A stretch of 64,000 nt of DNA from a virus: IMG/VR virus record IMGVR_UViG_3300028569_000028, positions 1 to 64,000 of that record, one strand, 5' to 3'. Of this stretch, positions 736 through 58,263 are shown in pieces. The position numbers and the translations under genes are program-made. How positions within the stretch are numbered: the first letter of the stretch is position 1; each line of letters opens with the position of its first letter. The notes below the pieces were generated by a model, which made no database searches, was not told the origin of the DNA, and saw nothing but the letters and a program-made list of their open reading frames with translations.

Positions 736-771
736 TTCCAATTGGATGTATAAAGCTTTTTGTTTGATAAG

Positions 772-947: not shown

Positions 948-964
948 TGCAAGTCCTGTGCCAA
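948..964 (-). promoter_or_regulatory. sigma-54-like site 3 (inverted copy)
   Basis: Read on the - strand this is TTGGCAC-AGGAC-TTGCA. The first 16 bases are identical to site 2 at 95-110, and the -24/-12 spacing is correct. It points left, toward the 39-aa gene. A shared 16-mer in inverted orientation also fits a binding-site pair. Confidence 0.4.
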
Positions 965-1103
965 GTTAATTAGTCTTGGTCTCTGGAATTATTCTGGTTA
1001 CGTTACCTTAAACCTTTTCGGTTTACCCTCTTGTAGTGCAGAAAAAACTTGTTTAAAGATGGTCCTTTTTAGCTCTCTTTTCACGCTTTACGGAGTCACC
1101 TTC

Positions 1104-1119
1104 ATCTTATAAGGGTGTT
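1104..1119 (-). promoter_or_regulatory. late-type promoter motif, leftward copy D
   Basis: On the - strand this reads AACACCCTTATAAGAT. It shares the 12-mer AACACCCTTATA with the elements at 44573, 51593 and 58249, which precede virion gene blocks. Its leftward orientation would serve the 110-241 gene and whatever lies left of the window. Confidence 0.5.
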
Positions 1120-34285: not shown

Positions 34286-34784
34286 AAAAAATGGAGCTAG
34301 AGTGCATAGACAAGATTTTATAGAATCTACTTATATTCACGGAATTGTCAATGTTAATGGAGAGCAAGTAATTCGCCCTCTAAACATAGAAGAAAGACAG
34401 TTCTTGGATGACTACTATAAAGAATTTGTTCATGGCACTTTTGTAACGGATAAAGAATCTACTAAGCTTTTTAAAATAGCTAAGAAACTTTCTAAAAAAC
34501 CAGACAATGTGAAATTTTTTGAAGATAACGGTTTTTACCCAGAAGAAGTTGAACGAGCAGTAAACTCCTTTAATGAGAAGAGTAAGCGTCTTGGAAATAT
34601 GGCTTGTGACTTTTGGCAACAACGAGACATAAACTCAGATGATTATAAGCGTAGGTTTGATATACAGAACAATGCTTCTAAAGGATTGCAGTTGGAATCT
34701 TTTGAGGATATCCAGTATATATCTAATGTAGATGATTTTGTAGATACAATTATTGAAGACCTAATTACGGAAAGCGAGGAATAA
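34230..34784 (+). CDS. hypothetical phage protein, 184 aa
   Basis: Basic N-terminus (KHRKKFQHLRKNGARVHRQD) then YIHGIVNVNGEQVIRPLNIEE, with an acidic helical C-terminus. I have seen the K-N-G-A-R-x-H-R-x-D pattern in phage proteins of unknown function. ATG 34230 has a poor ribosome site; GTG 34302, with GGAG upstream, is an alternative start. Confidence 0.55.
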   Translation: MINNTGKIKKHRKKFQHLRKNGARVHRQDFIESTYIHGIVNVNGEQVIRPLNIEERQFLDDYYKEFVHGTFVTDKESTKLFKIAKKLSKKPDNVKFFEDNGFYPEEVERAVNSFNEKSKRLGNMACDFWQQRDINSDDYKRRFDIQNNASKGLQLESFEDIQYISNVDDFVDTIIEDLITESEE

Positions 34785-41985: not shown

Positions 41986-42334
41986 ATCTCACACCTCTAT
42001 TATAAATTATCTGATAAACATCTTCGTAATTATGTTGCATTCCAAAAAGCCTACAAAGATGCGCAGTTCTTTGTTGGGTAAACTCAGAAGTGCTTTTACT
42101 TATTTGAGCAGAAATTGTTTTACATTCTTTTTGTTTAGCAATTTCTTCTACTTTAGTTGCTAATTCTTTCCACTTATCTCTACCCCTTGCTAGAGGAGTT
42201 ACGTACATTTCTATAATTTTTATACATTTAACTGGACCAATTTCCTGTAGCTCATAAGTTACAAAGCTATCTTCATCCTCTAAGGTTTCCCAGTTAACCG
42301 TTTCTTTAACAAACTCTGCGTATAGACTAGCCAT
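41978..42334 (-). CDS. GNAT-like protein, 118 aa
   Basis: A beta-alpha pattern with IIEMYVTPLARGRDKWKELA and a C-terminal YNRGVRYE looks like a reduced acetyltransferase (GNAT) fold, which occurs beside internal virion genes in several podoviruses. The usual acetyl-CoA loop (Q/RxxGxG/A) is degenerate here (LARGRDKW), so catalysis is uncertain. Adjacent stop/start with the 740-aa gene. Confidence 0.5.
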   Translation of the reverse strand: MASLYAEFVKETVNWETLEDEDSFVTYELQEIGPVKCIKIIEMYVTPLARGRDKWKELATKVEEIAKQKECKTISAQISKSTSEFTQQRTAHLCRLFGMQHNYEDVYQIIYNRGVRYE

Positions 42335-44556
42335 TAACTTTGCCTACGCAATAAATCCGTTAAAGCTGCAGTTCTTGCTCTTGTTGCTTCTGTATCAACA
42401 ATATTAGCTCTATTTTCAAATCCTTGACCTTGTAGAAATTGAGCATATTTATTTTGTAAATCTTGAATTGCTAAATCTTTTGCTATTGCAGAACCATAAG
42501 CTTTCATCTCTCCAGTATTAATACCGCCTATAGCTCCTCCGATTCCTCGTAAAGCACTGCCTATAGCTCCGCTAGAGCTTCCGCCAACATTAGAGATAGC
42601 TCCTCCAACTTTTGAGCGAGCATCTTGAACTCCTGTTGCAATAGTTCCTAATCCTTTAATTCCTAATTTTTCTTCTAGTTCTTTTGCAAGATCAGTATAC
42701 AATTGAGTTGTGTCTAAAGTATTAGCCCCTGCGAATCCCCCAACAGCTCCTCCTATTGCAGCTCCTATACCAGCACCAATAGGACCAGTTCCAGTCATAG
42801 CACCAATACTAGCCCCTGTACTAGCTCCTGCACCAACACCTTCTAGTGCCGATCCGCCAATTCCTTCTTGTATATCTCTACTAGTTGATGTAGCACCTAA
42901 ATATTTATTAAGCAAGTCTTTATCTGACAGTAGAGATTTTATCCCTTCTGTACCTTCTGCACCAACATCGTACCCAGCTTGACGAAGCATGTCAGATACA
43001 TTCCCTTCAACAGATGCACCGTATGTTTTTGTTTTTTTACCATATACATTACCACGAGATACTTTCTTTTCTCCCGTTCCTGTTAATGTAGCTCCCTCGG
43101 CTGCAGTTTTAAATCCTTGCTGAGATTCATTTAACAACCTTCTAAAAGACTCGACATCTAAGGAAGATGATAAATCCTGAGTTCCGGCTTTTGATAAATC
43201 GCTATATGTTAAATCTTTTTGTAATTCTCTTGAAATATCTGTACCAGCAAGTTGTTGTAATGCAAGTTGTCTAGAAAGTTCATCTTTAGTAATAAGTTTA
43301 GCACGTTCTGCTTCAGCAGCTTTGATATCTTCTGGACGAATGTTATAAAGTCCCTCACCCGCTCCAATTCCTAAAACAGCAGCTTCTTCTGCAGATAATT
43401 CCCATTGTGGCTTAGTTTTAGTTGCTAATGATTGTTTAAAATACTCTGGAAGTCTATCCCACTCTGTTTGATAAACTGGATTACCTGCTGTATCTACAAT
43501 TTGCTTTCCTGCAGAATCAAGTTTTGCAATTTTATTGCCTTGCGTATCAACTGCTGGAGTTTTAATTAAATCATCAATTCTTTTTTCTGTAGCTTGTTCT
43601 TCTACAGCTCTTGCTCCAGTAAACTCTTGTCTTGCTCCAGATCGAATCCCTTCAATTACGGCTTGTCTTTGTACTGCCTCATTGGTGGAAAGATTCTGAG
43701 CAGCTTGTAAAGCTTCTTGAGCTTTAGCAGCTGGTTGAGCTTGTTCTTGTAGTTGTTTAACGCCTTGCTGAGATGCGTTTAAAAGAAGAGCATCAAGCTT
43801 TGACACACCCCTTCCATATTCTCTCGTTCTACCAAATACATCTTTTAAAAGCTGCTCTCTACCTAACGCAGTCTGAGTCTTTTGTGCCGCTTCCTGAGCT
43901 GTTCTAGCTTTCTGAGATGCTTGTTCGTAAAGCCCCGCTTGCTGAAGAGAAGCCGGTCCTTGATATTGAGCATTAATAATTTCAGCAAAACGCTGTTGTT
44001 GTTCTGGAGTGAAATATTGTTGAGCTTGAGCTTGTGGCTGAGTTGGTGCTTGAGTGGGGGTTGGAATAGCTGGAGCTTGTCCTTCTACTAATGCTGCAGC
44101 TTGTGTTTGTGGTTGTGGTTGTGGAGCTTGATAAGTCGCTCCTCTAGCAGTTCCAACAATACCTTTAGCTTCTTGTGCAGCTGTTTCCATACTCTTGATG
44201 GAGCCAGCTTCCATTCGTCTTCCAAACGCTTCCTGAGCTTGTTGTGTGCCTTTTTGAGCACCTGCTCCAAGTTTCTGAACCTGTTGAGTAGCGGCTTGAG
44301 CAACACGCTGTTGCCCTCCACTTTGAGCGGCTTGTAAATAATTTTTTAAATTGGAAAAAGTGCCAGTTCCAGCTTTAGGCTGTTTTGGCATTGGCATTGA
44401 TGATTGGGATGGTTGACTCGCTCCAATAGTTGCTGGAGCGGAGGAAGCCTGTTGAGGCTGTTGTTCTTCGGGCTGTGGTTGACCAGCCATGCCTTGACCT
44501 AGTGCTTGGCTTGTACCTTGACCTTGTTGTTGTTCTTCGTCTTTTACAATAGCCAT
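42334..44556 (-). CDS. large internal virion protein with Gly-zipper segment, 740 aa
   Basis: The first 190 residues are Gln/Pro/Ala-rich and probably disordered. A Gly-zipper region (GASIGAMTGTGPIGAGIGAA) near residue 595 could insert into membrane. It is first in a block after a late-type promoter (44573-44587), with GAGG upstream of ATG. Likely an ejection or channel-forming protein. Confidence 0.6.
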   Translation of the reverse strand: MAIVKDEEQQQGQGTSQALGQGMAGQPQPEEQQPQQASSAPATIGASQPSQSSMPMPKQPKAGTGTFSNLKNYLQAAQSGGQQRVAQAATQQVQKLGAGAQKGTQQAQEAFGRRMEAGSIKSMETAAQEAKGIVGTARGATYQAPQPQPQTQAAALVEGQAPAIPTPTQAPTQPQAQAQQYFTPEQQQRFAEIINAQYQGPASLQQAGLYEQASQKARTAQEAAQKTQTALGREQLLKDVFGRTREYGRGVSKLDALLLNASQQGVKQLQEQAQPAAKAQEALQAAQNLSTNEAVQRQAVIEGIRSGARQEFTGARAVEEQATEKRIDDLIKTPAVDTQGNKIAKLDSAGKQIVDTAGNPVYQTEWDRLPEYFKQSLATKTKPQWELSAEEAAVLGIGAGEGLYNIRPEDIKAAEAERAKLITKDELSRQLALQQLAGTDISRELQKDLTYSDLSKAGTQDLSSSLDVESFRRLLNESQQGFKTAAEGATLTGTGEKKVSRGNVYGKKTKTYGASVEGNVSDMLRQAGYDVGAEGTEGIKSLLSDKDLLNKYLGATSTSRDIQEGIGGSALEGVGAGASTGASIGAMTGTGPIGAGIGAAIGGAVGGFAGANTLDTTQLYTDLAKELEEKLGIKGLGTIATGVQDARSKVGGAISNVGGSSSGAIGSALRGIGGAIGGINTGEMKAYGSAIAKDLAIQDLQNKYAQFLQGQGFENRANIVDTEATRARTAALTDLLRRQS

Positions 44557-44572: not shown

Positions 44573-44587
44573 TAATATAAGGGTGTT
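44573..44587 (-). promoter_or_regulatory. late-type promoter motif, site A
   Basis: On the - strand this reads AACACCCTTATATTA, followed by CAGAGG. The same element precedes the gene blocks at 51568 and 58237. There is no -35 hexamer; the upstream sequence is only AT-rich. It lies 17 bases ahead of the 740-aa gene. Confidence 0.65.
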
Positions 44588-44967
44588 AAATGGCATTTTT
44601 CACATTCAACACAATATCAATTACTTATAACTATTGCCAGTCTCACAAAGTTATGCTATATTTGTGAACGGAGACTAACATCTCCTCTTTTTGCTCTTTT
44701 GGACCGTGAAATAGAGAGTTTACAAGCGAACTCGATATATGAGCCGGTGTAGGAAACGAAATACTCAACTAGGTGTCGTAAAACCACTAAGTACCTAGCG
44801 GAAAGCCAGAGAGTTAAACAAAACAACTTATAGACTTGGGGTTTTGTAGAAAAGAGAAATTCAGGTTAAAAGCCCCAGCCTTATCCCCAATTAGCTAAAA
44901 AGCACATTAAGGATTTGGTTTTACTAAAAAGAGATTTAAGCTCTATATAAGTGAAACTATGTCAAAA
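44588..44967. other. non-coding gap between virion blocks
   Basis: No reading frame is convincing. It contains a rightward sigma-70-like promoter (44634-44662) and, just after it, a small hairpin (GGAGA/TCTCC, 44670-44685) followed by T-rich sequence. Other inverted repeats include CTAGGT/ACCTAG around 44770-44800. On the leftward strand, AGAG/CTCT plus TTTTT near 44937-44955 may be a weak terminator for the 135-aa gene. It may encode an antisense or regulatory RNA. Confidence 0.5.
44634..44662 (+). promoter_or_regulatory. rightward sigma-70 promoter, extended -10
   Basis: TTGCCA (44634-44639), a 17-base spacer and TATATT (44657-44662) preceded by TGC, an extended -10. It points against the virion genes. 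Nothing coding lies downstream on this strand, so the product would be an RNA antisense to the 135-aa gene or stopped at the hairpin at 44670. Confidence 0.55.
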
Positions 44968-45375
44968 TTACTGAATAAGCTCCAGCGTTAACCTATACTT
45001 TACTCCAGTAGTAAATCCCACCCCATAATTAATCTTAACAATGCCATTGCCTTGAAAGCTCCAGTCAAGATATGGAACCTGAGAAATTCTTGAAGCATTA
45101 GTAATGTTTTGAATCTTTCCAATGTGAAGCATTGAAACAAAGCTTAAGTTCGTTACAATACTAGCATTTCCAACAGGCTTGCCTGTAGAATCAAAGCTAA
45201 TATCAATGTTAACTTTGGCACGAGCTAAATTATCAAAATCAAGTTGACCATTTACAACTTGGTATATTTCATCAGCAAATTCATTATAAGAACCAGCAAC
45301 TCCCTCAATAACTTCTTGAGCTTCTTTGCTGTAATCCTCTGGAATAATTCTTCGAATATCACTTAACTTTGGCAT
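44968..45375 (-). CDS. virion-block protein, 135 aa
   Basis: Starts MPKLSDIRRIIPEDY. Helical N-terminus and beta-rich C-terminus (KVNIDISFDSTGKPVGNAS...RLTLELIQ). Immediately follows the 1528-aa gene (shared base at 45375). Similar small proteins often fit between tail or neck components; no family is recognised. Confidence 0.6.
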   Translation of the reverse strand: MPKLSDIRRIIPEDYSKEAQEVIEGVAGSYNEFADEIYQVVNGQLDFDNLARAKVNIDISFDSTGKPVGNASIVTNLSFVSMLHIGKIQNITNASRISQVPYLDWSFQGNGIVKINYGVGFTTGVKYRLTLELIQ

Positions 45376-48300
45376 TATCTATAGCCTCTAGAAGATACTT
45401 CTCTAGGCTGTAAAGAAACTCCAATGAGTTTCCATTCTTCTCTGGCATTAATATGTCTGAATTGCACATGCAAATAGCGACAGCGAGATTTATCTCTTGG
45501 TATGAGAGTCCTAACTGGAACTTCATTTCCCTCTCCGCCATAAGTTACATCTGCCCAACTATATCCATCCCAGTATCCCGGACCTTTTCCAAAGAATTCT
45601 ACAGAAGCAAAGTCATACGACCTATCAGATGAGTAAGCAACAATGCCTCCCCAAAAGTTATTCTGGTCAAAGATAAAAGTTCCCTCGGATACTTGCTTTG
45701 TCATTTCAGGCTTACCAAAATGTTGTGGAGCGTACTGCACAAGACATTTAATAGCTTTAAAGAAACTTACGTTTCCTTGAATGAACTTGTTCATGAATTT
45801 TAAAGTAACAGTGTTAAATCTTGGATTAACTACTGTAACAAGTGCTTCATAAGTTAAAAGGTCTGTAGCAAGTTTGTAATTTTTAAACCCAGTTGCGGCA
45901 ATTGTACTATTAAGATAATTAATAATGTCGTTGTAATCATCTCTAAGCTCTATAAGAGAATTAGAGTTTGAACTTGCTGGAACCATAATTCCATCAGAGT
46001 TAAGCTTTGCAACAAGCTGCACCAACTTAGCCGCTAAGCTATCTCCAGTTACTGCCTTAAGTGTTGAGTAATAATTATTGGAATTAAGAATGTCTCTATC
46101 CAGTTTCTTAAGAAGTCTGTTATATTTGTTAATATCCACATACTGAGTTTGTACTAAGACATCTCCAGCTTCGAGTTCAGCTACGGAAGAAATAATAACG
46201 GTTAAGTCATTAATTGCTCCAGCACTAATACTTCTAATAATTTCTCTATCAGATTGGTCTTGTCTTTCTAAGTTTTTTCTTTCTTTAAGAACATAAGGTC
46301 TACTAGAGGAATCTCCTAAATAAATTTTATCATCATTAGGATTTACCACTCCACAGTTAGCTGGCTTTGTCCAACGAGTCCATGCTCTTGTAAATGTATT
46401 GTATCTAAAAGCTTGAGTAGCATAGTTATCTGTTGTTTTTTCTGGAAGCCATATAATGTAACATCTATCAGATTCAGAAGCCATTCCCCAGCTCATAAGC
46501 TTATAATTAAACTTAGCGTTGGCGATTTCCTGTATCTTGTTTTCAATATTTCTGGAGATAATACCCACCCCAGTCTCTGACACAGTTACTACACCTTGGC
46601 TAGTAAGCACATAAATGAGGTTATTGAGGTTTGTGGCTGTATCTGGAGCAAAGGTAAGGGCAGAGGAGTCAGACAGTCTCACGCTGAAATTTGGAGCAGC
46701 TGAGCCTGATATAATATAAACTCCATCTTCTTTAAGGACAACAAGGCTATCTCTTAACGCCATAATGCGTTGAATGGCTTTATCTTTTGGTCCAATGTCG
46801 ATATAGTTAACTAAAGGCACTGCTTCTGGCTGATTTATCTTTGAAAAGTAAATTCTATTTCTATTTGAAGAATTATCTGATACAACATCAGCTGGGAAAA
46901 TAATTGCTTGATCAAAAGCAGAGTAAGTTGTTGTAGAGCTAAAACCTGTAATTGTTAGAGAAGTTGTAGTTGGAGTTGTAGCAACAGTTTTTCTTCCAGA
47001 TAAAATAGTGGCAGAAGTTGTTGGTTTAATAAATACATAAACATCTTGATTCGGAAGTAATTCGTGAGCCGCTGTAGTATTAATAGTAGTAGGAGCTGTA
47101 ACATTAGAAATCGTCTTAACAACTGGAATAGATGGTTCAAATACGGCAGTAGTTGTTGCATGACTGAATCCTAGAAATACTGGGTCATCAAGCAAGTTCT
47201 TAGCTTCTAAAACAATAATACCCGGTAGGTCATTTGGACCAGATAGGTAGAAAGCTGTAACTGGAGAAGAAGCATCTTTATTAATGATTCTTTCAAGTGA
47301 CCTTGCTGTATCTTCTACTGAAAGTCCTTGAGAGGCTAATCCAGATAAAAGCACTTCGTTTGCTGCAGCATTTTCTCCAAGTCCTTCTTGAAACACAGTA
47401 GGAGTTACCCAGCTCACTGCGGCAACTGACTGGGTTACGGCACTAGCGTTACCGTTGTCGGTATAAGTAAGCCTTATTACCCCAGAGCCAATATCTGTTG
47501 CTTCAAAATCTGGAATGTCAAAGAATGCACTTATGAATGCGTCAACTGAACCTTGGGTTGTATTGTCATAGCCTTCTAAAGCAACTCTTAAAAGAATAGA
47601 AGAATCATTACTTGGAGCTTCAGAGTCGTGTAATATATTAGCTGTACCGACTGCAGAGCTTAAGTCTATTGCTGTCCCATTCACCGTTAAAGATAGTTTA
47701 AAGACGTTATCACTTATTCTTATGGCATAGTACGTGCCAGCTGTTAAACCAGCAGGTAAGCTTGCTCCAGAGATTGCTACTTTGTCGTTTGTTGCTAAGC
47801 CGTGTGCAGCTATGGTAATTTCTTCTGTTGTTGCATTTACTGCAGTATCTGTAAAGCTAAAGCTAACAGTACCCTTATCAAACCAGACTCTATACTTAAC
47901 TCTATCTTGAGCTGACATTACATCGAAATAAGATCCTCCAGTTGTCTCAGCTTTTTTCTTAGCTGTGAAATCTACAATTTCATTCCTTCCAACAAAAGTG
48001 TAAGTTCTAACAATTTGAGAATTAGCGATGTATAATTTAGAAACTCCAGAAGTGAACTGGCTTACAGAAAGTAAATTGAATTGAACTCTATGCCTTTCTT
48101 TTGTATTGGCATAGAAAGCTGAGCCTTTAAACACAGCAACATCATGCGCTACTGGAGGAGCTTCATTTGACTGAAGAGAACCTTCGCCAGTTACAGGATT
48201 ATTATAAAGAAATAACCCACCTTGTCTAAATGTTTCTGGAACAATGTCGCTAAAAGTAATGCTTGATGGAATTGGAGAAGAATCTTCAACGACTGCATAT

Positions 48301-49961
48301 TCTGCAATCTTCTGGAACTCTTCACCCGGATCGATGTCGTTAAGCGTTAAGCCTGTAGCTACTGTAATAAAAGCTGTTCTATAAATTTCATAGAAATAAG
48401 TTCTATCATTATTGGTGATGATTTCTGAAGGAACTGTAAAGCTTAGAGATGTGTTAGCCGGAATTCCTGTAGCAGTTTGACCATCAAATACTTTTGAAAC
48501 AGTTATAAGTGATGAATCGATATTTCCAGCTGATGCGTCAAGTACGTTACCGCCATCAATGTTTGTAACGGTAACTTCTGTTGAGGTAGTGCTAACGCTA
48601 ACATCAGATACAAGAGAAATTGTTTCGGCAATCTTTGCCATGTAATTTTCTTTTGACTTATTAGAGATTTTATAAATCTCAACTTCTCGTAAATCTCTAC
48701 CAACTAGACTTGTATCCGTTGGGGCAACGTCTGTCCCAGAAATATTAAACCAGCAAGCGAATTTATTTGTTGGAGAGTCGAAAGTAAAATAATTAGAATT
48801 AAATAATCCTGAATAAATATTAGAAACGCCTTCAATTTTTGTTAAACTTATAGCAGACCCACTTGAAGTGGCTGATAATTGAAATGTATCTGTAGTAACG
48901 TTTACTATGTAGTATGTATTTGCTTTGTTTATTTCTTTTGGAATAATTCCATAAAGTCTAACTTTTGTATTGTTTGTATACCCATGCGAAGTTACTGTTA
49001 TAGTTTTTCCAACATTGGTACTCTCTACAATACCGCCAGTTCCTGTAGCTGTTATATCAATTTCAGAACCTTCGATTGTATTCTTAAGCTTGATTTTATT
49101 AGTATCTACTCGTATAACGTAATAATTACCAGCTGATAACCCCGTAGGTAATACTAAAGCTCCGGCTGATAGTTTTATTAAGTCATTTGTTTGAAAGTTA
49201 TGATCGACTGCACCAGTTGTAAGATTTATAGTATTTGTTGTAATATTAACATCGGCTGTTACAAATGGAAATTCAATACCACCAGAGAGAGCAGTTGTGG
49301 AGTCGAATTGTTTATGAATTCCTGCACCAGCAGTAGTTACGGCAATACTAAACTCTTCCCCAACATTTATATCATTAGAAGTATTTGTTAAAACATATCT
49401 AGAACTTGGAACGCCACGGTTAATATTACCATTGGCATCTTTTTTAGCCCAAAGAACTTTATACCCAACTTTTGATTGAGCTGGAAGAAAACCAGACTCG
49501 GAAGGAACAATAACGCCTTCTAAGCTTAGAGCTTTAACTGCTCCAGCATTTGTGATAAAACCAGCAGAAGTTGTAAAGTCACTGGCAGAAGTTGCCGAGA
49601 TTTTTTTAATGCCTTCGCTTGTTGTAAAATACAGGTTTGAGTTAAGCTCGAAATATTTAATTCTAAGCCTTTCCACAAGCTCAGAATAGACTCCAGAAAA
49701 GTTTAGGAAGGTTCCATTACCATCAGAGTCGAAACTTAATTTATTTGAGAAATGGCGAAGAATACGCCCTTTATAAGTGAGTAGTTGTTTTACAACAGTG
49801 TCATCATCTGTTTTATTTCCAAACTCTCCAAAGCCTCGTCTACTCTGAATTACGTTGTCAAAATCAATGACGCAGTTATCAAGAATTTCAGCGGCTCCAT
49901 CTGGTCTTGCGAGTTCGTTTGGACTTGTTACCAAGCCTCGGTTGATAGTTAGTACAGACAC
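45375..49961 (-). CDS. very large tail nozzle/stabilisation-type protein, 1528 aa
   Basis: The N-terminus NRGLVTSPNELARPDGAAEI...CVIDFDNVIQSRRGFG and a central RIYFSKINQPEAVPLVNYID and VVLKEDGVYIIS resemble the beta-propeller tail nozzle or stabilisation proteins of podoviruses. About three small repeated domains are inserted (near residues 236-311, 315-378 and 690-770). They have the form HGLxTNDKVxISGxxLPxGL...YYxIxVxxxxFKL, known from phage fibres. It is unusually long for this class. Followed three bases downstream of the 399-aa gene. Confidence 0.6.
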   Translation of the reverse strand: MSVLTINRGLVTSPNELARPDGAAEILDNCVIDFDNVIQSRRGFGEFGNKTDDDTVVKQLLTYKGRILRHFSNKLSFDSDGNGTFLNFSGVYSELVERLRIKYFELNSNLYFTTSEGIKKISATSASDFTTSAGFITNAGAVKALSLEGVIVPSESGFLPAQSKVGYKVLWAKKDANGNINRGVPSSRYVLTNTSNDINVGEEFSIAVTTAGAGIHKQFDSTTALSGGIEFPFVTADVNITTNTINLTTGAVDHNFQTNDLIKLSAGALVLPTGLSAGNYYVIRVDTNKIKLKNTIEGSEIDITATGTGGIVESTNVGKTITVTSHGYTNNTKVRLYGIIPKEINKANTYYIVNVTTDTFQLSATSSGSAISLTKIEGVSNIYSGLFNSNYFTFDSPTNKFACWFNISGTDVAPTDTSLVGRDLREVEIYKISNKSKENYMAKIAETISLVSDVSVSTTSTEVTVTNIDGGNVLDASAGNIDSSLITVSKVFDGQTATGIPANTSLSFTVPSEIITNNDRTYFYEIYRTAFITVATGLTLNDIDPGEEFQKIAEYAVVEDSSPIPSSITFSDIVPETFRQGGLFLYNNPVTGEGSLQSNEAPPVAHDVAVFKGSAFYANTKERHRVQFNLLSVSQFTSGVSKLYIANSQIVRTYTFVGRNEIVDFTAKKKAETTGGSYFDVMSAQDRVKYRVWFDKGTVSFSFTDTAVNATTEEITIAAHGLATNDKVAISGASLPAGLTAGTYYAIRISDNVFKLSLTVNGTAIDLSSAVGTANILHDSEAPSNDSSILLRVALEGYDNTTQGSVDAFISAFFDIPDFEATDIGSGVIRLTYTDNGNASAVTQSVAAVSWVTPTVFQEGLGENAAANEVLLSGLASQGLSVEDTARSLERIINKDASSPVTAFYLSGPNDLPGIIVLEAKNLLDDPVFLGFSHATTTAVFEPSIPVVKTISNVTAPTTINTTAAHELLPNQDVYVFIKPTTSATILSGRKTVATTPTTTSLTITGFSSTTTYSAFDQAIIFPADVVSDNSSNRNRIYFSKINQPEAVPLVNYIDIGPKDKAIQRIMALRDSLVVLKEDGVYIISGSAAPNFSVRLSDSSALTFAPDTATNLNNLIYVLTSQGVVTVSETGVGIISRNIENKIQEIANAKFNYKLMSWGMASESDRCYIIWLPEKTTDNYATQAFRYNTFTRAWTRWTKPANCGVVNPNDDKIYLGDSSSRPYVLKERKNLERQDQSDREIIRSISAGAINDLTVIISSVAELEAGDVLVQTQYVDINKYNRLLKKLDRDILNSNNYYSTLKAVTGDSLAAKLVQLVAKLNSDGIMVPASSNSNSLIELRDDYNDIINYLNSTIAATGFKNYKLATDLLTYEALVTVVNPRFNTVTLKFMNKFIQGNVSFFKAIKCLVQYAPQHFGKPEMTKQVSEGTFIFDQNNFWGGIVAYSSDRSYDFASVEFFGKGPGYWDGYSWADVTYGGEGNEVPVRTLIPRDKSRCRYLHVQFRHINAREEWKLIGVSLQPREVSSRGYR

Positions 49962-49964
49962 AGC

Positions 49965-51164
49965 TTACCACCTTCTATTGCGTCGCCCTAGAGTGTTCAG
50001 TGTATTTACCAGAGGTGAATGCCTAGACTTAATCTTCTGCATTGCACCTTCAACTCTATTGTCGAGAAATGTTGCAGCATCTTTTTCCATTGTGGCAAGT
50101 TTTCTTTCTGCAGATTGTTTATTTTGCTCATCGCCCATTGCTTCCAAACAAGCAACAGCAACTCGCTGTGCTAAAATAGGATGGAGTTCTGTGGGGATAT
50201 TTGGAACAAATGTTTCCTCTGCAAGCGTTATATAAGAGCCTACAATAAGATCTGGAATATCTGTTGCTACAAAGCTTATTTGTTTAGATACTTGATTGAT
50301 TGCGTTAAAACGCTTATCATAATGAATTATTTTATTTGGGGATACATTTTGAACAAAGTCAAAGAAATTATTCTGGAGAAATATAGCTGGAAGAGTAGAT
50401 AGTGTTAGTCGTTTAACACTTAGTGCAGCATTGAAATTTCCACCGATAGATCCAACAGAAGAAGTAGTAAATTTAACACTAAAAGTATTTGCATCAATAA
50501 CATTAATTTCATGGAATCCATCCACAGAAGGAGTTGTATTAGCCCCAGAAATTTGAACAAGTTGTTTATTAGTAAGTCCATGACTAACACTTGTAAATGT
50601 GGTTTCTGTTCCAGAGACTATGTTTGTAAAAGCTCCAGTCTTAGGATTAATCTGGTCAATTTCAGAAGTCTGTGCAATACTAATAATGGTACTGCCAGCA
50701 GATTCTATTACTAAATGGTTAGGACGCATATAGAAATACATGCGAAGTTTCATTCTATCATTTGCATCAAAGTTAGAAAGAATTACATCGTTGTTTTCTA
50801 AATAAAAGCCACGGTTATTAATGTACGTTGTGGTGTTTGTGAAATCTGAAATTTCACCTAAAGAATATCTATGCATTTCAAAAATATTATCATTTTCATC
50901 AATAAGAGCTACATCACGCATTTTATTCCCATGCGCTCTAGAAGGAATAGCATATCTCTTTTTCCCCCCTATTAATGGAAGGTCGATATAGTAAATGAGA
51001 TGCTCTTCGTGCATTCTTTGTATAAGCGGCACAAGTCCAATATTGACTTCTTCTGTAGCCATTCTTAATAAATCTTCATCGGTAAAAGACTCTTGAGAAT
51101 TGGGTATGAATGCGCGTCGCTTAATACTGCGAATTAAATCGCCAGTTTTTAAAATGCTACTCAT
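49965..51164 (-). CDS. neck/tail-connector-type protein, 399 aa
   Basis: The N-terminus LKTGDLIRSIKRRAFIPNSQ, then TDEDLLRMATEEVNIGLVPL, and IYYIDLPLIGGKKRYAIPSR suggest an adaptor-type protein. The region about 185-250 carries one copy of the fibre-type domain (VSHGLTNKQLVQISGA...). Precedes the nozzle-like gene in the same order as neck and tail genes in other podoviruses. The assignment is positional. Confidence 0.5.
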   Translation of the reverse strand: MSSILKTGDLIRSIKRRAFIPNSQESFTDEDLLRMATEEVNIGLVPLIQRMHEEHLIYYIDLPLIGGKKRYAIPSRAHGNKMRDVALIDENDNIFEMHRYSLGEISDFTNTTTYINNRGFYLENNDVILSNFDANDRMKLRMYFYMRPNHLVIESAGSTIISIAQTSEIDQINPKTGAFTNIVSGTETTFTSVSHGLTNKQLVQISGANTTPSVDGFHEINVIDANTFSVKFTTSSVGSIGGNFNAALSVKRLTLSTLPAIFLQNNFFDFVQNVSPNKIIHYDKRFNAINQVSKQISFVATDIPDLIVGSYITLAEETFVPNIPTELHPILAQRVAVACLEAMGDEQNKQSAERKLATMEKDAATFLDNRVEGAMQKIKSRHSPLVNTLNTLGRRNRRW

Positions 51165-51178
51165 TTTATAGCCTTATA

Positions 51179-51568
51179 TTACTTTCCTAGTTTCTTCTTC
51201 AGCATTTCGAACATTGCTTCCATTTCTTCTGGAGACATTTCCGAGGCATCTTCTTCCGCTTCCATTTCTGGAGACTCTTCTTCAGAATCCTCAGAAGCTT
51301 GACAAAGAGGACAGCCTTTGCCTTTACACTTAGGACAAGACTCATCTTCTGATTCTTCGCCATTACCTTCTTGGCTAGATTTCATCTGCATAATCTTCTC
51401 AGCCATAGAAAGTCCTTTTTTAAGACCTTCTGGAGAGTCAGACATAACAGATACTTTTTTCATGCCTTTTTTGCCAATCATGTCTTTCATTGGAGAATAC
51501 ATGTCATTTGACATTTCTTTTGAAAGTTCTTTGAGCATCTCAGACTTAGCTTTTGCTTTCTTTTCCAT
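51179..51568 (-). CDS. acidic Met-rich protein with zinc knuckle, 129 aa
   Basis: Lys/Met-rich helical N-terminus, then CPKCKGKGCPLC (a zinc-binding repeat of DnaJ style) inside a Glu/Ser-rich region, and a helical Met/Glu end (PEEMEAMFEMLKKKLGK). Highly acidic and probably unfolded: a scaffold- or chaperone-like composition. First gene after late-type motif B. Confidence 0.6.
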   Translation of the reverse strand: MEKKAKAKSEMLKELSKEMSNDMYSPMKDMIGKKGMKKVSVMSDSPEGLKKGLSMAEKIMQMKSSQEGNGEESEDESCPKCKGKGCPLCQASEDSEEESPEMEAEEDASEMSPEEMEAMFEMLKKKLGK

Positions 51569-51592
51569 AGTTTATAGCTCCTTTGTGCCACA

Positions 51593-51607
51593 TAATATAA
51601 GGGTGTT
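51593..51607 (-). promoter_or_regulatory. late-type promoter motif, site B
   Basis: AACACCCTTATATTA on the - strand, identical to site A over 15 bases. It lies 25 bases before the 129-aa gene and about 55 bases after a leftward terminator, so it restarts transcription of the neck and nozzle block. Confidence 0.7.
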
Positions 51608-51662
51608 ATTTGTTAATTTATTAATATTATTAATTATTTATGTAAAAACAAAGAGTTAGAAA

Positions 51663-51692
51663 AGAAAAAGGCCCCTATATGGAGCCCTTTTA
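51663..51692 (-). terminator. leftward rho-independent terminator
   Basis: On the - strand, AAAAGGGCTCC and GGGGCCTTTTT pair over 11 positions (with G-U pairs) around ATATA and end in TTTTTCTTTTC. It closes the tail-fibre block just after the 281-aa gene. The mirrored A-run makes it potentially bidirectional. Confidence 0.8.
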
Positions 51693-51695
51693 TTA

Positions 51696-52541
51696 TTAAT
51701 CTTGTTGATAAATTTCAAACTTACTGATTCGTATTATGTCGGAGCTAGATGCGCCTACAAAATTAAAAGATAGATTATAGTAACCCGGACCACCATCGGC
51801 AACACCCGGACCACCATCGGCAAGTCTTGTTAAATCAAACTCATGATAACCATTTGCTGCAACCGATGCTAAAATTTGTGCCGTTGTAGCTGTAAGTGCT
51901 GATTCTGCTCCATGATCTGTCCAATAAATTGCGTAAGTTCCAGATCCTTCAATAGAATCAACGTAAAGTCTAACTTTCAAGTTACTAGATTTTGTCTCAG
52001 TAGTTATAGCTGCTGATCTAGGATAAATAATTCCATAGTTATTTTCTCCTACGATATCAAAACCAACTTGAATTAATTTTCCTTCTTGTAAGTTACTACT
52101 CCCAGTAGTATTCTCGTGTACCGCAGGGGCAGAGTATGAATTATTAATAAACATTCTAGTATGGTAAAGACTTAAATTAGAAGGCGGTTGAGATGATTGA
52201 AAATTAATATCAAATTCGGAAGCCTGAACTTCAGATCTTGGTATTTCTAAAAATCCACCATCAAAGTCTAATATTACCAATTTTTGAATTTCAAACGAAT
52301 CTCTAGCTTGATTTGAAACTAAAAAAGACCCCACTGGAGTAGATAAAGTTGCGTCAAATTCAACAATTTCATACTGACTTCCAGAAGAACTTTTATACAC
52401 CACATTAACTCTGTACCAATTACTAGAGTCAGAAAAATAAGAATCTGCAACAACCATAGCATGTTGCAAAAGCTCAGATTTAGAAAGAGTAAAAGCGGCA
52501 GTTTGTCCTTTATAAGTGGACGGTTTTGTTATTATAGCCAT
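51696..52541 (-). CDS. tail-fibre accessory protein, 281 aa
   Basis: The N-terminal about 120 residues (IITKPSTYKGQTAAFTLSKS...) are clearly homologous to the 144-aa protein at 53545. The C-terminal half is a beta-rich jelly-roll-type domain (STALTA-type loops; SFNFVGASSSDIIRISKFEI). A short duplication GGPGVADGGPG occurs near the end. Probably a receptor-binding or fibre-tip protein. Confidence 0.6.
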   Translation of the reverse strand: MAIITKPSTYKGQTAAFTLSKSELLQHAMVVADSYFSDSSNWYRVNVVYKSSSGSQYEIVEFDATLSTPVGSFLVSNQARDSFEIQKLVILDFDGGFLEIPRSEVQASEFDINFQSSQPPSNLSLYHTRMFINNSYSAPAVHENTTGSSNLQEGKLIQVGFDIVGENNYGIIYPRSAAITTETKSSNLKVRLYVDSIEGSGTYAIYWTDHGAESALTATTAQILASVAANGYHEFDLTRLADGGPGVADGGPGYYNLSFNFVGASSSDIIRISKFEIYQQD

Positions 52542-52552
52542 TTTTATTCTCC

Positions 52553-53524
52553 TTAAACTTTAATAATTAGACGAAGATTAGCATTTGTATCTGGACTTGG
52601 AATATTAAAAGTAGTAGAGCCGTTTCCAGACCCGTAAGAAACTCCAATCAATGTAAAAAGAGCAGAGTATGTTGATCTGCTAACAGCAGAACCATCACAT
52701 AAAAGCCACCCAGAAGGAGCCGAGGAACCAGCATATATCTGTATTACTCCTACTGGAATAAGTCCACTTGTTGCAACTATAGAATCTGCGTAGGACTTTG
52801 CAGAATTTAGAGTTGTAACATCAGCTGCTAGTCTAGTAACCTCTTCTGTAGCTATAATTGCCGCAAAGTCCATTAGTTTAGACTCTGTATAAGACTTTGC
52901 CGAGTTTAGAGTTGTAACATCAGCTGCTATTCTAGTATTTACTTCTTCAGTTAAACTAGTAGATAAAGCAGTATCGGCTGCTAGTCTAGTAACCTCTTCT
53001 GTAGCCAAAGCTGCCCAAAACGGCCATACTTTGGAATCTGCGTAAGACTTTGCCGAGTTTAGAGTCGTAACATCAGCAGCAGTTCTATTACTTACTTCTT
53101 GACTTAAACTTGTAGATAAAGCAGTATCAGCTGCTAGTCTAGTAACCTCTTCTGTAGCTATAATTGCCGCAAAGTCCATTAGTTTAGACTCTGTATAAGA
53201 CTTTGCAGAATTTAGAGTTGTTGTATCTGCAGAATTTCTCGCAGAAACCTCAGAGCTAATTTCAGAATCAGTGTAAGACTTTGCGGAATTTAAAGTATTC
53301 GTATCTGCTGTTTGTCTGTTTGTAACTTCAGAACTTAAAGCAGAATCTAAACTTGATAATTCGCTTATAACCTCTGATTTTTTTTGATCGGCATAAGCCT
53401 TTAGAGGAGCTTCCAGAGTACTAGCCTTTATAGACTTCGATACTCCACCAGTGGAAACAAGTAGTAAGTCATCGGCACTAAGGCTCGTGACTTTTTCGGA
53501 TAACTGTGATAATTTTTTATTCAT
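52553..53524 (-). CDS. tail fibre with collar domain, 323 aa
   Basis: N-terminal LSQLSEKVTSLSADDLLLVS, a shaft made of repeats of the form TLNSAKSYTESKLMDFAAII and ATEEVTRLAADTALSTSL, and a C-terminal phage tail collar domain (GVIQIYAGSSAPSGWLLCDG ... SYGSGNGSTTFNIP). Two repeat units are nearly identical at the DNA level, so recombination can change shaft length. Confidence 0.75.
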   Translation of the reverse strand: MNKKLSQLSEKVTSLSADDLLLVSTGGVSKSIKASTLEAPLKAYADQKKSEVISELSSLDSALSSEVTNRQTADTNTLNSAKSYTDSEISSEVSARNSADTTTLNSAKSYTESKLMDFAAIIATEEVTRLAADTALSTSLSQEVSNRTAADVTTLNSAKSYADSKVWPFWAALATEEVTRLAADTALSTSLTEEVNTRIAADVTTLNSAKSYTESKLMDFAAIIATEEVTRLAADVTTLNSAKSYADSIVATSGLIPVGVIQIYAGSSAPSGWLLCDGSAVSRSTYSALFTLIGVSYGSGNGSTTFNIPSPDTNANLRLIIKV

Positions 53525-53544
53525 TATTTACTCCGTTTGTATTA

Positions 53545-53979
53545 CTATAGTACTAAGAATTCTTCAGATTCTAATAAAAGAGCAGCTCCATCTTCTAGTA
53601 ATAGTACAAACTCTTCACTTTCCGAGCCAGTATAAAGTTCTAGATCAAAATCTAACGTATTCAAATCATTTCTTTCTAATTTTAAAATTTCACCGTCAAG
53701 ATCAACAATTACCAAAGATTCAATCTGGAATGATGTTCTTGCTTTTTCAGAAGCAGAAAACATCCCATACATAAAACCATCAGCTGAGTCAAAATTAACA
53801 ATAATTCTCTGATTTCCTTCGGTGCTTTTATAGTTAAGATAAACTTTATGCCACTTGGAAAAACTAGAAAATTGTAAATTAGAAGATACGATATGATTAT
53901 TTATTAGATTTGTTTTAAAAAGGGTAATTTCTACAGGAGTGCCTTTATAAATAACACTTGGTTTTGATATAATAGACAT
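53545..53979 (-). CDS. short paralog of the 281-aa fibre protein, 144 aa
   Basis: Aligns with the first about 120 residues of the 281-aa protein: IISKPSVIYKGTPVEITLFK versus IITKPSTYKGQTAAFTLSK, and IESLVIVDLDGEILKLERND versus IQKLVILDFDGGFLEIPRSE. The C-terminus is a short duplicated acidic tail (EEFVLLLEDGAALLLESEEF). Likely a truncated or alternative fibre module. Confidence 0.6.
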   Translation of the reverse strand: MSIISKPSVIYKGTPVEITLFKTNLINNHIVSSNLQFSSFSKWHKVYLNYKSTEGNQRIIVNFDSADGFMYGMFSASEKARTSFQIESLVIVDLDGEILKLERNDLNTLDFDLELYTGSESEEFVLLLEDGAALLLESEEFLVL

Positions 53980-54028
53980 TTTTTATTCCTTAAAAATAGA
54001 GGGGACTTACGTCCCCTCCCCCAATAAA

Positions 54029-56839
54029 TTAGTAGTAGTAAGTTATGAAAATGCTATCGCCTTCTTCAATTTTTTCTTCACCGCTTGGGTTAGCAAAAGA
54101 ATTGATCCAAGTAAGACGAGTTTTACCGCCAACAACGCTGACAGTATAATCTTCATCTTTATGAACAGAAAGACGATTTACACAAACAATAAGAGAATTA
54201 GCAACTACTTCTCTTTCAAGTTCAATGTAGCCAAGTTCAGAACTAATAACAGTTTTTTGTTTACCAAAAGCTTTAGCTTCGATAACATCCAAACGTTGAT
54301 CTAGAGCTTCTTCAGCAGAAGTTGCTCTTGAAACTTCATTAGAAACAGAACCTTCTACAGCTGTAATATCACTTTCTGCAGTGGTCATACGACCTTCTAG
54401 AGATGTGATATTTTGTTCAGCATTAAGCATTTGAGATTGAAGAGTAGAAACGTCAGACTCTACTTCGTCCATACGGCCTTCAAGAGCAACAACGTCACCC
54501 TCAGCAGTATCCATACGGCCTTCAAGAGCTACAATATCGCCCTCAGCAGTATCCATTCTACCTTCAAGAGCTACTACATCTCCTTCAGCAGTTGTAAGTC
54601 TAGAATTAAGTCCAGACTCTACACCCATAGCTCTTATTTCTTCGTCATCAATAGCAGACTGAAGAGAAGCTTCTACGCCCATAGCACGAGACATCTCTGA
54701 GCTAACAGCACTTGTTCTATCAGAAATTTCTTGAGTAATTTGAGATTGTAAAGAACCCTCAACTCCCATAGCTCTAGTTTCTTCAGAATCAATATTACCT
54801 TGAAGAGTTTGTTCTGCACTTTCAGCACGAGACTCCTCAGAATCGATCTGAGATTGTAGAGAACCTTCCACACCCATTGCACGAGATTCTTCAGAATCAA
54901 TTTGAGACTGCAAAGATCCCTCAACGCCCATAGCGCGAGTTTCTTCTGCATCGATATTATCTTGAAGAACTTGTTCTGCACTTTCAGCGCGAGACTCTTC
55001 TGAATCAATTTGAGACTGTAAAGACCCTTCAATACCTGTTGCACGAGTTACTTCTGCATCAATTGCATCTTGAAGATCTTGTTCAGCAGCTTGAGCACGA
55101 GCTACTTCCTCTCCTAGAGCAGAAGAAGAACCTGTACCTAGAGCAGAAATTGCTCCTTGTAGGCTAGAATCTGCAGACTGGAAAGCAGCAATTACTTCTG
55201 TCAATGAATCAAGAGCAGCTGGATCAACATTACTTAGAATATTGTTGATTTGGTTTTGTAGACCTTGGTCAGCAGAAATACGAGCTGATTCTTCAGAATC
55301 AATCTGAGATTGCAAAGACCCTTCTACGCCCATAGCTCTAGTTTCTTCAGAATCAATTTGACCCTGTAGAGAACCTTCTACACCCATAGCACGAGACATT
55401 TCTTGAGAAACAGCATCTTCTCTGTCAGAAACTTCTTGAGTAACTTGGTTTTGAAGCTTACTGATACCTTCTACTAGAGAATCAGTAGAAACTACTTCTC
55501 CAGACATTTCAACATCAAGAAGAGAAAGCTCAGATTGCTGAACTCTTTCTTCAGTAAAGAACTTATTAACCATTCCTTCTTGTACGTTATCACTGTTAAT
55601 AGCGAAATCGCCATTAGCAAAAGTAACGCTTAATCCAGCATTTGGATCAGAAGATAAAGAAACATCGCCTAACTGGATTGTATTACCAGAAAGGAATAGA
55701 TCTTTAAATTTCTTGGTAGAAGAACCTAAATCATAAGCTTCATCTGTATCTGGGATAATGCTTCCAGAAATATTTCCAAGTTTTGTTTGAACTCTTTCAT
55801 TTGTGAAGTAAAGGTTAGACCCTTCAACTACTTCACTAGTAGTAAGATCATCAATTTGCTGTTGTAAAGAACCTTCGACACCCATAGCACGAGTTTCTTC
55901 AGAAGAAACCGCTGTAATTCTGTCAGAAACTTCTTGATCAAGAGCATCTTGAATAGACTCTTCCACACCCATAGCACGAGACATTTCTGAACTAACAGCA
56001 GATGTTCTGTCAGAAACTTCTTGCGTGATTTGACTTTGTAGAGAACCCTCAACTCCCATAGCACGAGACATCTCTGAGCTAACAGCAGATGTTCTATCTG
56101 AGATTTCTTGAGTGATTTGACCCTGTAGAGAACCTTCTACGCCCATAGCACGAGTTTCTTCAGAATCAATTTCTTCCTGAAGACCTTGCTCAGCAGATTG
56201 AGCACGAGAAACTTCAGATGTAATTTGAGACTGTAGAGAACCTTCTACGCCCATTGCGCGAGTTTCTTCGTCTTCAATTTTACCATCAAGAACGATATCA
56301 GCAGCTTCACGAGCTGACTCTTCAGAGTCAATATTAGACTGGAGAGTTGATTCAGCAGTTTGAGCACGAGAAATTTCTTCTCCCAAAGCTGATGTTGAAC
56401 CAGTTCCCAATGCTGATATTGCATCTACTAAGTTTTGATCGGCTTGTTGGAAAGCTTGTACAACTTCTGTCAAAGAATCTAGGGCACCCGGATCTACGTT
56501 ACTCAAAATATTGTTAATTTGAGATTGTAGACCTGCATCTCCAGCAATACGTGAAGTTTCTTCTGCATTTAGAGCTGACTGTAAAGAACCTTCTGCAGCA
56601 ACTGCACGAGACTCTTCTGTTTCAAGAGCACTTTCAAGATCTGATCTTAATTCATCTACTTGAGATTTAAAGGCAATTTCTTGCCCTTTGGACAATACTT
56701 CACCATCTGAACCAAGCTTCAAGAGTTCAATCTCTCCAGCTGGGCCTTCAATTCGTAAAGATTGGCCACTTAGAAGTTTAATTTTCGATCCGTCAACGGC
56801 ATCGTTTTTAATAAACTTCTTTTTAATTTGTTGAGCCAT
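54029..56839 (-). CDS. long coiled-coil tail fibre, 936 aa
   Basis: N-terminal attachment part (about 1-70), then a shaft of more than a dozen units with the motif ETRAMGVEGSLQSQI. Two larger duplicated blocks contain ILSNVDPxALDSLTEV (about residues 112 and 515). DTAEGDIVALEGRM repeats lie near the C-terminus. It ends with a small beta domain (DYTVSVVGGKTRLTW...FITYYY). The shaft is predicted to be a trimeric coiled coil. SD AAGGGGAG. Confidence 0.75.
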   Translation of the reverse strand: MAQQIKKKFIKNDAVDGSKIKLLSGQSLRIEGPAGEIELLKLGSDGEVLSKGQEIAFKSQVDELRSDLESALETEESRAVAAEGSLQSALNAEETSRIAGDAGLQSQINNILSNVDPGALDSLTEVVQAFQQADQNLVDAISALGTGSTSALGEEISRAQTAESTLQSNIDSEESAREAADIVLDGKIEDEETRAMGVEGSLQSQITSEVSRAQSAEQGLQEEIDSEETRAMGVEGSLQGQITQEISDRTSAVSSEMSRAMGVEGSLQSQITQEVSDRTSAVSSEMSRAMGVEESIQDALDQEVSDRITAVSSEETRAMGVEGSLQQQIDDLTTSEVVEGSNLYFTNERVQTKLGNISGSIIPDTDEAYDLGSSTKKFKDLFLSGNTIQLGDVSLSSDPNAGLSVTFANGDFAINSDNVQEGMVNKFFTEERVQQSELSLLDVEMSGEVVSTDSLVEGISKLQNQVTQEVSDREDAVSQEMSRAMGVEGSLQGQIDSEETRAMGVEGSLQSQIDSEESARISADQGLQNQINNILSNVDPAALDSLTEVIAAFQSADSSLQGAISALGTGSSSALGEEVARAQAAEQDLQDAIDAEVTRATGIEGSLQSQIDSEESRAESAEQVLQDNIDAEETRAMGVEGSLQSQIDSEESRAMGVEGSLQSQIDSEESRAESAEQTLQGNIDSEETRAMGVEGSLQSQITQEISDRTSAVSSEMSRAMGVEASLQSAIDDEEIRAMGVESGLNSRLTTAEGDVVALEGRMDTAEGDIVALEGRMDTAEGDVVALEGRMDEVESDVSTLQSQMLNAEQNITSLEGRMTTAESDITAVEGSVSNEVSRATSAEEALDQRLDVIEAKAFGKQKTVISSELGYIELEREVVANSLIVCVNRLSVHKDEDYTVSVVGGKTRLTWINSFANPSGEEKIEEGDSIFITYYY

Positions 56840-56857
56840 TCGCTCTCCCCTTGTTGT

Positions 56858-57226
56858 TTAGTACTGAATAATCAGTACATCTGTTTCTTCTAAGAATCCA
56901 TCCAGTCCTAGGTCACTCCATGATATTTTATTTCCAATTACCTGATAGTCTATATCGTTTAACTGAGAAATTCCTCCATATATATCAATAGTAACAGCAC
57001 TAGATACTAAGGGTGTTTGCGCAAGCGTCACAAATTTGTTATTTATATCAGCTTGAGTTAATTGAATTTTTTCAACAACAGAGCCTCCAATAGGAAAACC
57101 TCCTGCTGAAACTCCATCACCCCCGTAAAATGCTTTTTTATCTACATCATAAACTACTTCGCTGCCTTGTAAAACAAGAGCAATTCTTTGAAGCGTTGTA
57201 ATCTTAGGTGCTTTAAATATCGCCAT
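56858..57226 (-). CDS. fibre adaptor protein, 122 aa
   Basis: The C-terminal about 70 residues (QLTQADINNKFVTLAQTP...DYQVIGNKISWSDLGLDGFL...LIIQY) resemble the end domain of the 936-aa fibre and other phage adaptor domains. N-terminus APKITTLQRIALVLQGSEVV is typical of tail-attachment modules. Overlaps the 62-aa gene by 14 bases. Confidence 0.55.
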   Translation of the reverse strand: MAIFKAPKITTLQRIALVLQGSEVVYDVDKKAFYGGDGVSAGGFPIGGSVVEKIQLTQADINNKFVTLAQTPLVSSAVTIDIYGGISQLNDIDYQVIGNKISWSDLGLDGFLEETDVLIIQY

Positions 57227-57401
57227 CGTAAACTCTTAAGCCTTGGTCAATTTGGGAAGAATCTATACTCCTATCCCCCATATCAATCTGGATATCACTT
57301 TCTAGTGTATCTCCCATATCGATATCGGCTAACTCGGCAAACGTTTCAGGAGGCTCTGTCCAAACAATTTCGGCTTTAAATTGGTCAAATTTCCAAGGCA
57401 T
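57213..57401 (-). CDS. hypothetical virion-block protein, 62 aa
   Basis: Acidic, with repeated DMGD motifs (ELADIDMGDTLESDIQIDMG). Adjacent to the 278-aa gene (shared base 57401). Unrecognised; probably a small connector. Confidence 0.55.
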   Translation of the reverse strand: MPWKFDQFKAEIVWTEPPETFAELADIDMGDTLESDIQIDMGDRSIDSSQIDQGLRVYDGDI

Positions 57402-58237
57402 TAATACCTCGTCTTTTGAACGGATACTATTAGTTTTTTTGTTGAGTCTACGTAAGTAACTAAAACGTCTTGCACTACTTGTGTATTATATTTATAACTA
57501 TAAAGTTCGCTTATATTACTTGGAAATGTAGTGGCAATTTCATCCCACAAAACTTCATTTGGAGGAACGGTAGCTTCTTCTCTATGTTCAAACTGTCCTG
57601 TAAATAAATTAAACCTATAGTTTTTTAAAGTTTGACCTTTATAAACGGGATTAGAATTATCATAGTCAATCTGAATAAATCCAACTAATTCCTGTGCACC
57701 GCTTGTATTAGTTATTGTAAAGCCTGTGCCAAAATTGCTAGAGCTTGTCACAAGCCCAAGTCCGGCAGTTCTAATGTCCACAACAGAATTCGTCCTAGAA
57801 GCTGTAAAATCGTCTTTAAACAGCGTATTGAGCGTCAGGGATACTGCCATAGCAATTACTGAAGAAGGATCATTAGCGTTAATTTGAATCTCAATAGGAG
57901 TGGAATTCTGTGGAGCTGGATCTACCCCAAAATTATCAACGTTAAACCAAATGTGAAATGGCTTATTATCTGGAGCTGAGAAAAGTTTAATGTATGTATT
58001 TTGTAAAGAGCCAACTACGTCTGAAACACAACCTAGTGTTGTTTTGTGAGACTCAGAGCCTCTAAAATAAGAAACTTCAATTGGCTGGTTATCTAAATTA
58101 TAATCAGCTCTAAAGTGTGTATAATAGCTTGAAATTACTGATCTGGTATCGGTTGTGCGAATAGATTGTCCATGAAAGTCATGAACTTCTTTAACTATAA
58201 GGCCGGGATCATATTGGGAATTTTTATTATTAGCCAT
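57401..58237 (-). CDS. tail-associated protein, 278 aa
   Basis: Beta-rich: SYYTHFRADYNLDNQPIEVS near the N-terminus, KPFHIWFNVDNFGVDPAP and IEIQINANDPSSVIAMAVS in the middle. The middle pattern (value, then AxxVAxxLxxAL, then DDFTAS...VDIRTAGLG) is common in phage virion proteins of unknown role. First gene after late-type motif C, with GAGG before ATG. Confidence 0.6.
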   Translation of the reverse strand: MANNKNSQYDPGLIVKEVHDFHGQSIRTTDTRSVISSYYTHFRADYNLDNQPIEVSYFRGSESHKTTLGCVSDVVGSLQNTYIKLFSAPDNKPFHIWFNVDNFGVDPAPQNSTPIEIQINANDPSSVIAMAVSLTLNTLFKDDFTASRTNSVVDIRTAGLGLVTSSSNFGTGFTITNTSGAQELVGFIQIDYDNSNPVYKGQTLKNYRFNLFTGQFEHREEATVPPNEVLWDEIATTFPSNISELYSYKYNTQVVQDVLVTYVDSTKKLIVSVQKTRY

Positions 58238-58248
58238 TAAAACCTCTG

Positions 58249-58263
58249 TTATATAAGGGTGTT
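58249..58263 (-). promoter_or_regulatory. late-type promoter motif, site C
   Basis: On the - strand AACACCCTTATATAA, followed by CAGAGG, which is also the ribosome site of the 278-aa gene. Only about 12 bases separate the motif from the start codon. If TATATA were a bacterial -10, the transcript would start inside the ribosome site; this favours a different polymerase or start rule. Confidence 0.65.

Follow-up and report, generated by a model that had tools for sequence, protein, structure and literature searches.

How phages take over late transcription is a classic question, the known answers to which rest on recognisable RNA polymerases or sigma factors. The question is raised here by a short repeated element, the 12-mer AACACCCTTATA, found in a 64,000-nucleotide (nt) stretch of viral DNA (the window), which corresponds to bases 1-64000 of the 80,011-bp viral record IMGVR_UViG_3300028569_000028 (G000). 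In this genome, early and replication genes run rightward and virion genes run leftward from ~37.4 kb. An earlier note on the window had proposed that the element, seen ahead of virion gene blocks, is a phage-specific late promoter, a proposal that gained support from its kept positions, its lineage-wise sequence drift and a fixed pyrimidine-purine step downstream of it. AACACCCTTATA is very likely a promoter, judging by its sequence context, and the set of its copies very probably represents late promoters. The site set, its strand, position and conservation, the lineage letters and the fixed start step were read directly from the sequence.

Distribution of the element in the viral genome

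A total of 4 exact copies of AACACCCTTATA were found in the window and 6 in the whole record, all of them on the minus (virion) strand. The four copies reported by the earlier note were recovered at their places and on that strand, and the genome-wide search it had suggested added two further ones, both minus. No copies appeared on the plus strand, and the reversed-sequence control also gave 0 in the whole genome, while the count expected on the minus strand under a second-order Markov model was 0.0044 compared to the 6 observed; a chance repeat was ruled out as the origin of the copies by these counts. The exact copies, with their predicted start sites, were the following:

44576..44587, minus strand: element A (AACACCCTTATA), a putative late promoter whose start is predicted at 44571 (A), giving a leader of 15 nt
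51596..51607, minus strand: element B (AACACCCTTATA), a putative late promoter whose start is predicted at 51591 (G), giving a leader of 23 nt
58252..58263, minus strand: element C (AACACCCTTATA), a putative late promoter whose start is predicted at 58247 (A), giving a leader of 10 nt (AGAGGTTTTA-ATG)
1108..1119, minus strand: element D (AACACCCTTATA), a putative late promoter whose start is predicted at 1103 (G) and which has no protein gene downstream
G000:C1 68682-68693 and 74157-74168, minus strand, beyond the window: two further exact copies of AACACCCTTATA

All six exact copies lay in noncoding gaps, and five of them were situated 15-31 nt ahead of the gene that opens a leftward virion operon. 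Copies within genes or on the early strand, which the earlier note had named as the outcome that would speak against a promoter, were not seen in the genome. Moreover, a weight matrix made from the exact own sites and the sites of one close relative found four weaker copies on the minus strand (77685-77698, 76412-76425, 70494-70507 and 66912-66925) at further operon heads, that of the small terminase gene included. Taking exact and weaker copies together, leftward operons were marked by 9 of the 10 sites, 6 of these 9 lying 15-31 nt before the start codon, and the set headed nearly every leftward virion or packaging operon plus one structured RNA.

The features surrounding elements A, B and C were the following:

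42334..44556, minus strand: first gene after site A, encoding a 740-amino-acid protein of the virion block for which weak Gly-zipper matches were obtained
51662..51691, minus strand: hairpin resembling a terminator, located immediately upstream of site B and read from sequence
51179..51568, minus strand: 129-amino-acid gene, first after site B, in an operon shared with the adaptor and a 1528-amino-acid protein
49965-51164: adaptor gene (SU10_adaptor-like), in the same operon as the 129-amino-acid gene
57401..58237, minus strand: 278-amino-acid gene, first gene after site C

The placement ahead of the first gene of a virion block, as described in the earlier note, was therefore correct for A, B and C, but the fourth copy (1108-1119) instead heads a conserved structured RNA that had been missed. 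The adjacency to a terminator was also confirmed, although a terminator-like hairpin directly precedes two sites (51596 and 68682) rather than one, and the gap between TATA and ATG at site C measured 14 bases, not about 12.

Conserved positions and lineage-specific letters

Relatives of the virus were located via the terminase and other proteins. No near-identical phages were found, and the closest named terminase was that of a phage of Silvanigrella (29%). In the close relatives, with terminases 82-91% identical, [AG]CACCCTTATA appeared ahead of the same genes, and the same element preceded the same genes in G001, G002, G004 and G007. The distant relatives kept the positions and changed the letters, presenting AGCAACCTTATA in G011, TTTAACAACTATA in both G017 and G019, and TTTAACAACTA in G009, with further lineage variants in G018 (TTAACCTATAAT) and G014 (TTTACTATTAGTAT). 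In particular, the portal, 170-, 129- and 740-amino-acid genes carried the lineage's own element in several distant relatives, the 740-amino-acid gene being the first after the element in relatives too, each with its own motif. Furthermore, three phage contigs derived from metagenome-assembled genomes (MAGs), which were inspected after the pattern had been formed, showed at these same genes the elements TTAACAAGTTATA, TTTAACAAATAT/TTAACAAGTATATA and TTTAACAAGTA; the three MAG contigs carrying relatives were binned to Bacteroidales, Bacteroidia and Proteobacteria.

Fixed places with drifting letters are the expected look of a promoter read by a phage-specific factor, and the observed pattern would fit such a factor because the operons fix the places of the element, while its letters are free to co-evolve with the reader. 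Since the code varies by lineage and the places stay constant, the factor and its site would provide a ready test of co-evolving specificity, for which two small candidate genes are available (see below).

A predicted start site downstream of the element

Among 38 distinct sites of the close clade, the information content was confined to the block, a few AT positions before it, and positions 4 and 5 after TATA, the conservation of the core in this profile arising by construction of the search. Upstream of the core, each position between -50 and -6 carried <0.35 bit, which bears out the earlier remark that there is no -35 box. After TATA, a pyrimidine at +4 followed by a purine at +5 was found in all 34 sites counted (8/8 in the own genome, 7/7 in G002, 6/6 in G001, 6/6 in G004 and 7/7 in G011), and the 15/15 of the own genome and G011 combined was reached by 0 of 20,000 shuffles. 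The weaker own sites 70494 and 66912, outside this count, agreed by eye, and in G017 the step appeared one base later in 6 of the 8 sites. Given this fixed step, the purine 5 bases after TATA was taken as the predicted start site, and it is in all probability the +1 position. The element would then span about -16 to -5 and be followed by N3-YR, where R is the predicted +1.

Counted from this position, the 10-nt leader of site C opens with the Shine-Dalgarno sequence AGAGG. At site 77685, the predicted +1 falls on the first base of a conserved gene's start codon, which an in-frame TAG closely precedes (TAG GAT ATG), so the message would be leaderless; two G011 sites likewise read TATAnnnnATG. 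The gene in question is:

G000:C1 77507-77680, minus strand, beyond the window: conserved 57-59-amino-acid gene with a predicted leaderless message

Late start sites, leaders that are very short or missing altogether and a new structured RNA, probably part of the late programme, thus all follow as predictions of the code.

A probable structured RNA headed by element D

Site 1108-1119 faces a 640-base gap within the early genes and is not followed by any leftward gene. The sequence downstream was conserved in G003 (76%) and G001 (71%), the conservation starting at the predicted +1 (GAAGGTGACTCC) and the indels not being multiples of three. The corresponding feature is:

757..1103, minus strand: conserved structured RNA of ~345 nt, headed by element D; its 3' end is not fixed

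Compared to shuffled versions, the own RNA sequence gave a better fold (z -3.8); among five control segments, one reached -2.9. With a covariance model built from the 3' part of the RNA, a further copy, the fourth, was detected in L154 (E 2e-20), where AACACCCTTATAGTGTG lay upstream too, the homologues being located in L121, L122 and L154. In the alignment of the four sequences, 95.2% of the cells paired, and compensatory changes were found in 41 of 93 pairs compared to 15.8 in shuffles (0 of 500 reached this value, and at most 6 were obtained when slid). A second, different RNA type with similar covariation occupied the corresponding gap of G002, G007 and G004 (L041/L113/L116), with 28 of 129 pairs covarying vs. 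10.7 expected, and its start again coincided with the +1 predicted for a degenerate late site. As the structures were derived from the very alignments on which the changes were counted, these counts are biased towards them; the size of the compensatory excess nonetheless points to a real RNA. Moreover, a gap of this kind in G009, G017 and G019 contained a late site, followed shortly by a stretch like ACCGTTAAAAAA that these genomes share, and G009 also gave a weak model match to the 3' part of the RNA located elsewhere (L046 6357-6461, E 0.036).

No match to Rfam was obtained at the gathering threshold for the window and the loci of three relatives, nor at E<=1 for positions 1-1400. The RNA at 757-1103 looks like a new family, and element D seems to switch on an RNA of a kind absent from Rfam. 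The promoter set would be a variation on a known kind of control. GOLLD and ROOL are large structured phage RNAs, and the expression of GOLLD rises during lysis (PMC12286853); by analogy with GOLLD, a late role for the present RNA is plausible. Unlike GOLLD and ROOL, it has no Rfam match by sequence or structure, measures ~345-470 nt and is not near tRNAs, none of which were found in the window.

Search for the reader of the element

From the features described above we infer a promoter role, its lateness, the start site and a mechanism based on the host polymerase plus a phage factor. According to this mechanism, a phage factor made before the late stage would redirect the host RNA polymerase to AACACCCTTATA, acting like phiEco32 gp36 or T4 gp55 but without a recognisable sigma domain, and the redirected polymerase would start at R of N3-YR and transcribe the leftward virion and packaging operons together with one structured RNA. 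A redirected host polymerase is a fairly probable reader, and the full explanation, a late promoter read by the host polymerase with a phage specificity factor, appears reasonably well favoured.

The search for a polymerase or sigma gene, which the earlier note had suggested for the rest of the genome, detected neither a T7-type polymerase nor a sigma-70 domain. The Pfam family RNA_pol (PF00940) had no match in G000, G002, G009 and G008, with T7 and N4 detected in the same run, and the motif-C signature hydrophobic-HD(S/G/A) was not conserved in any open reading frame (ORF) >350 amino acids in 8 genomes. A motif search in the ORFs >350 amino acids for multisubunit-polymerase motifs (DFDID/NADFDGD-like) found nothing conserved, and phmmer with phiEco32 gp36 found no homologue. 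The conserved non-virion proteins >250 amino acids were mostly accounted for (exonuclease, helicase, DNA polymerase and ClpP). The 1528-amino-acid protein, the best-conserved large protein, had no motif-C signature and no PDB match when its family was searched, and its place after the adaptor gene is the one expected of a tail protein. A scan for sigma-70 promoters in the early region was uninformative (66 found vs. 57.9 expected). Thus, a clade with a clear late-promoter code has neither polymerase nor sigma by the searches run, and this result, together with the phiEco32/7-11 parallel, favours the host polymerase with an unrecognised phage factor.

In the cultured phages phiEco32 and 7-11, sigma-holoenzyme promoters occupy similar genome positions with a differing consensus, the middle/late promoters of phiEco32 gp36 being tAATGTAtA and the late promoters of 7-11 gp47 being GTAAtg-16-aCTA (PMC8948821). 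The present set shares with both phages the kept promoter positions and lineage-specific consensus, host polymerase plus phage factor being the working model here, and with phiEco32 the single short element without a -35; the layout of the genome is also similar, the virion genes sharing one strand. In contrast, its consensus is AACACCCTTATA or lineage variants, not tAATGTAtA; its predicted start lies 5 bases after the element vs. 6-8 in those phages; no gp36 homologue was detectable, and hardly any protein similarity was seen to the initial 45 kb of phiEco32. The late promoters of T4 are TATAAATA, read with gp55. They resemble the present set in having one element near -10, no -35 and late genes only, but the own element has an upstream CACCC block, and no gp55-like gene was found.

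Candidate factors were chosen among the non-virion proteins of unknown function that all 8 compared genomes share, two of which adjoin each other just before the late block. On account of where they lie and how well they are conserved, these two are the best candidates for the factor, and no more than candidates:

33899..34285, plus strand: 128-amino-acid protein, predicted winged helix, in all 8 genomes; candidate late specificity factor
34230..34784, plus strand: 184-amino-acid mostly helical protein, always beside 33899-34285; second candidate factor

The first was predicted as a winged helix by AlphaFold2 (mean predicted local distance difference test score 80), and many winged-helix regulators were among its top Foldseek hits, none of them significant. 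For the second, structure prediction and fold search gave no match beyond noise, the sole hit to a gp55 complex (7d7c) being at noise level. No homologues of either were found in named phages by tblastn with the G008 and G017 members. Genes for a ClpP-like protease (33097-33891) and a ClpX-like ATPase (34972-35898) flank the two candidates. Overall, it is possible, though still doubtful, that an uncultivated podovirus-like lineage uses a fast-evolving late promoter via a non-sigma host-polymerase factor, possibly the winged-helix protein beside ClpP, and also makes a new class of large structured late RNA from this promoter.

Weighing of the explanations

Several points weigh against a host polymerase guided by a phage factor. 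The promoter set was read from sequence; the orthologous sites are not independent; in G008, CACCCCTATA occurred once and no clear set of motifs emerged; and the spacing of the step was blurred in G009 and G019. The TATA block, at -8 to -5, is nearer the predicted start than a sigma-70 -10 box and would also suit a single-subunit polymerase. Furthermore, Sigma70_r2 (PF04542) had no match here while weakly detecting phiEco32 gp36 (19 bits), a score so low that a diverged sigma would escape this search, and neither candidate matches a known factor by sequence or fold.

A highly diverged single-subunit phage RNA polymerase of the T7/N4/mitochondrial type is an unlikely reader; the earlier note had likened the shape of the element to promoters of single-subunit phage polymerases or of a phage sigma factor. 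Transcription from a T7 promoter starts directly after TATA, and T7-type promoters end in CACTATAG. The compact conserved block ending in TATA is indeed shared with the T7, SP6 and N4 promoters, letters are conserved past TATA, and the TTTAACAACTATAG of relatives resembles the CACTATAG end. However, no such polymerase gene was found by either the PF00940 or the motif-C search, the large conserved non-virion proteins are mostly assigned other functions, the 1528-amino-acid protein is placed like a tail protein, and the predicted start, as a sequence signature, lies 5 bases past TATA. The late promoters of the AR9 non-virion RNA polymerase read AACA-(6N)-TA/G, the final A/G being the start (PMC5312081). 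The own AACA-CCCTTA-TA fits AACA-N6-TA, but the predicted +1 lies 5 bases further on, and G017 and G018 break this spacing.

Ordinary host promoters, with an extended -10 element read by the host's primary or an alternative sigma, seem improbable. Some copies do show the variant TATAAT (G002 24045; G018), and the upstream region is AT-rich, but the lack of a -35 signal, the invariant CACCC block fused to TTATA, a predicted start merely 5 bases after TATA, the drift of the consensus with phage lineage and the restriction of the copies to the virion strand argue against them. More improbable still is a site at which RNA is processed, or one at which a protein binds the DNA (for an operator, packaging or replication function), since, even though a site ahead of operon heads would fit processing, two copies lie directly behind terminator-like hairpins, the pyrimidine-purine step is fixed, an ATG coincides with the predicted +1 and the RNA homology begins there.

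Other genome observations

The family B DNA polymerase was seemingly split into two ORFs (22314-23723 and 23855-24778), being a single ORF in G011, G018 and G008. On the virion strand only, AAGCTGGTTC occurred 11 times and CTCGTGCTATGG 6 times in the minus-strand virion block, perhaps as repeats within tail proteins. Two arrays of a 15-base repeat, GCCCGAATTATAATT, were found within ORFs of G008 (L049 12493-12913 and L050 12077-12317) and would encode five-residue repeats. Finally, the 241-amino-acid protein encoded at 7045-7770 contained NQL(E/R/G/W) repeats and was homologous to a longer G008 protein.

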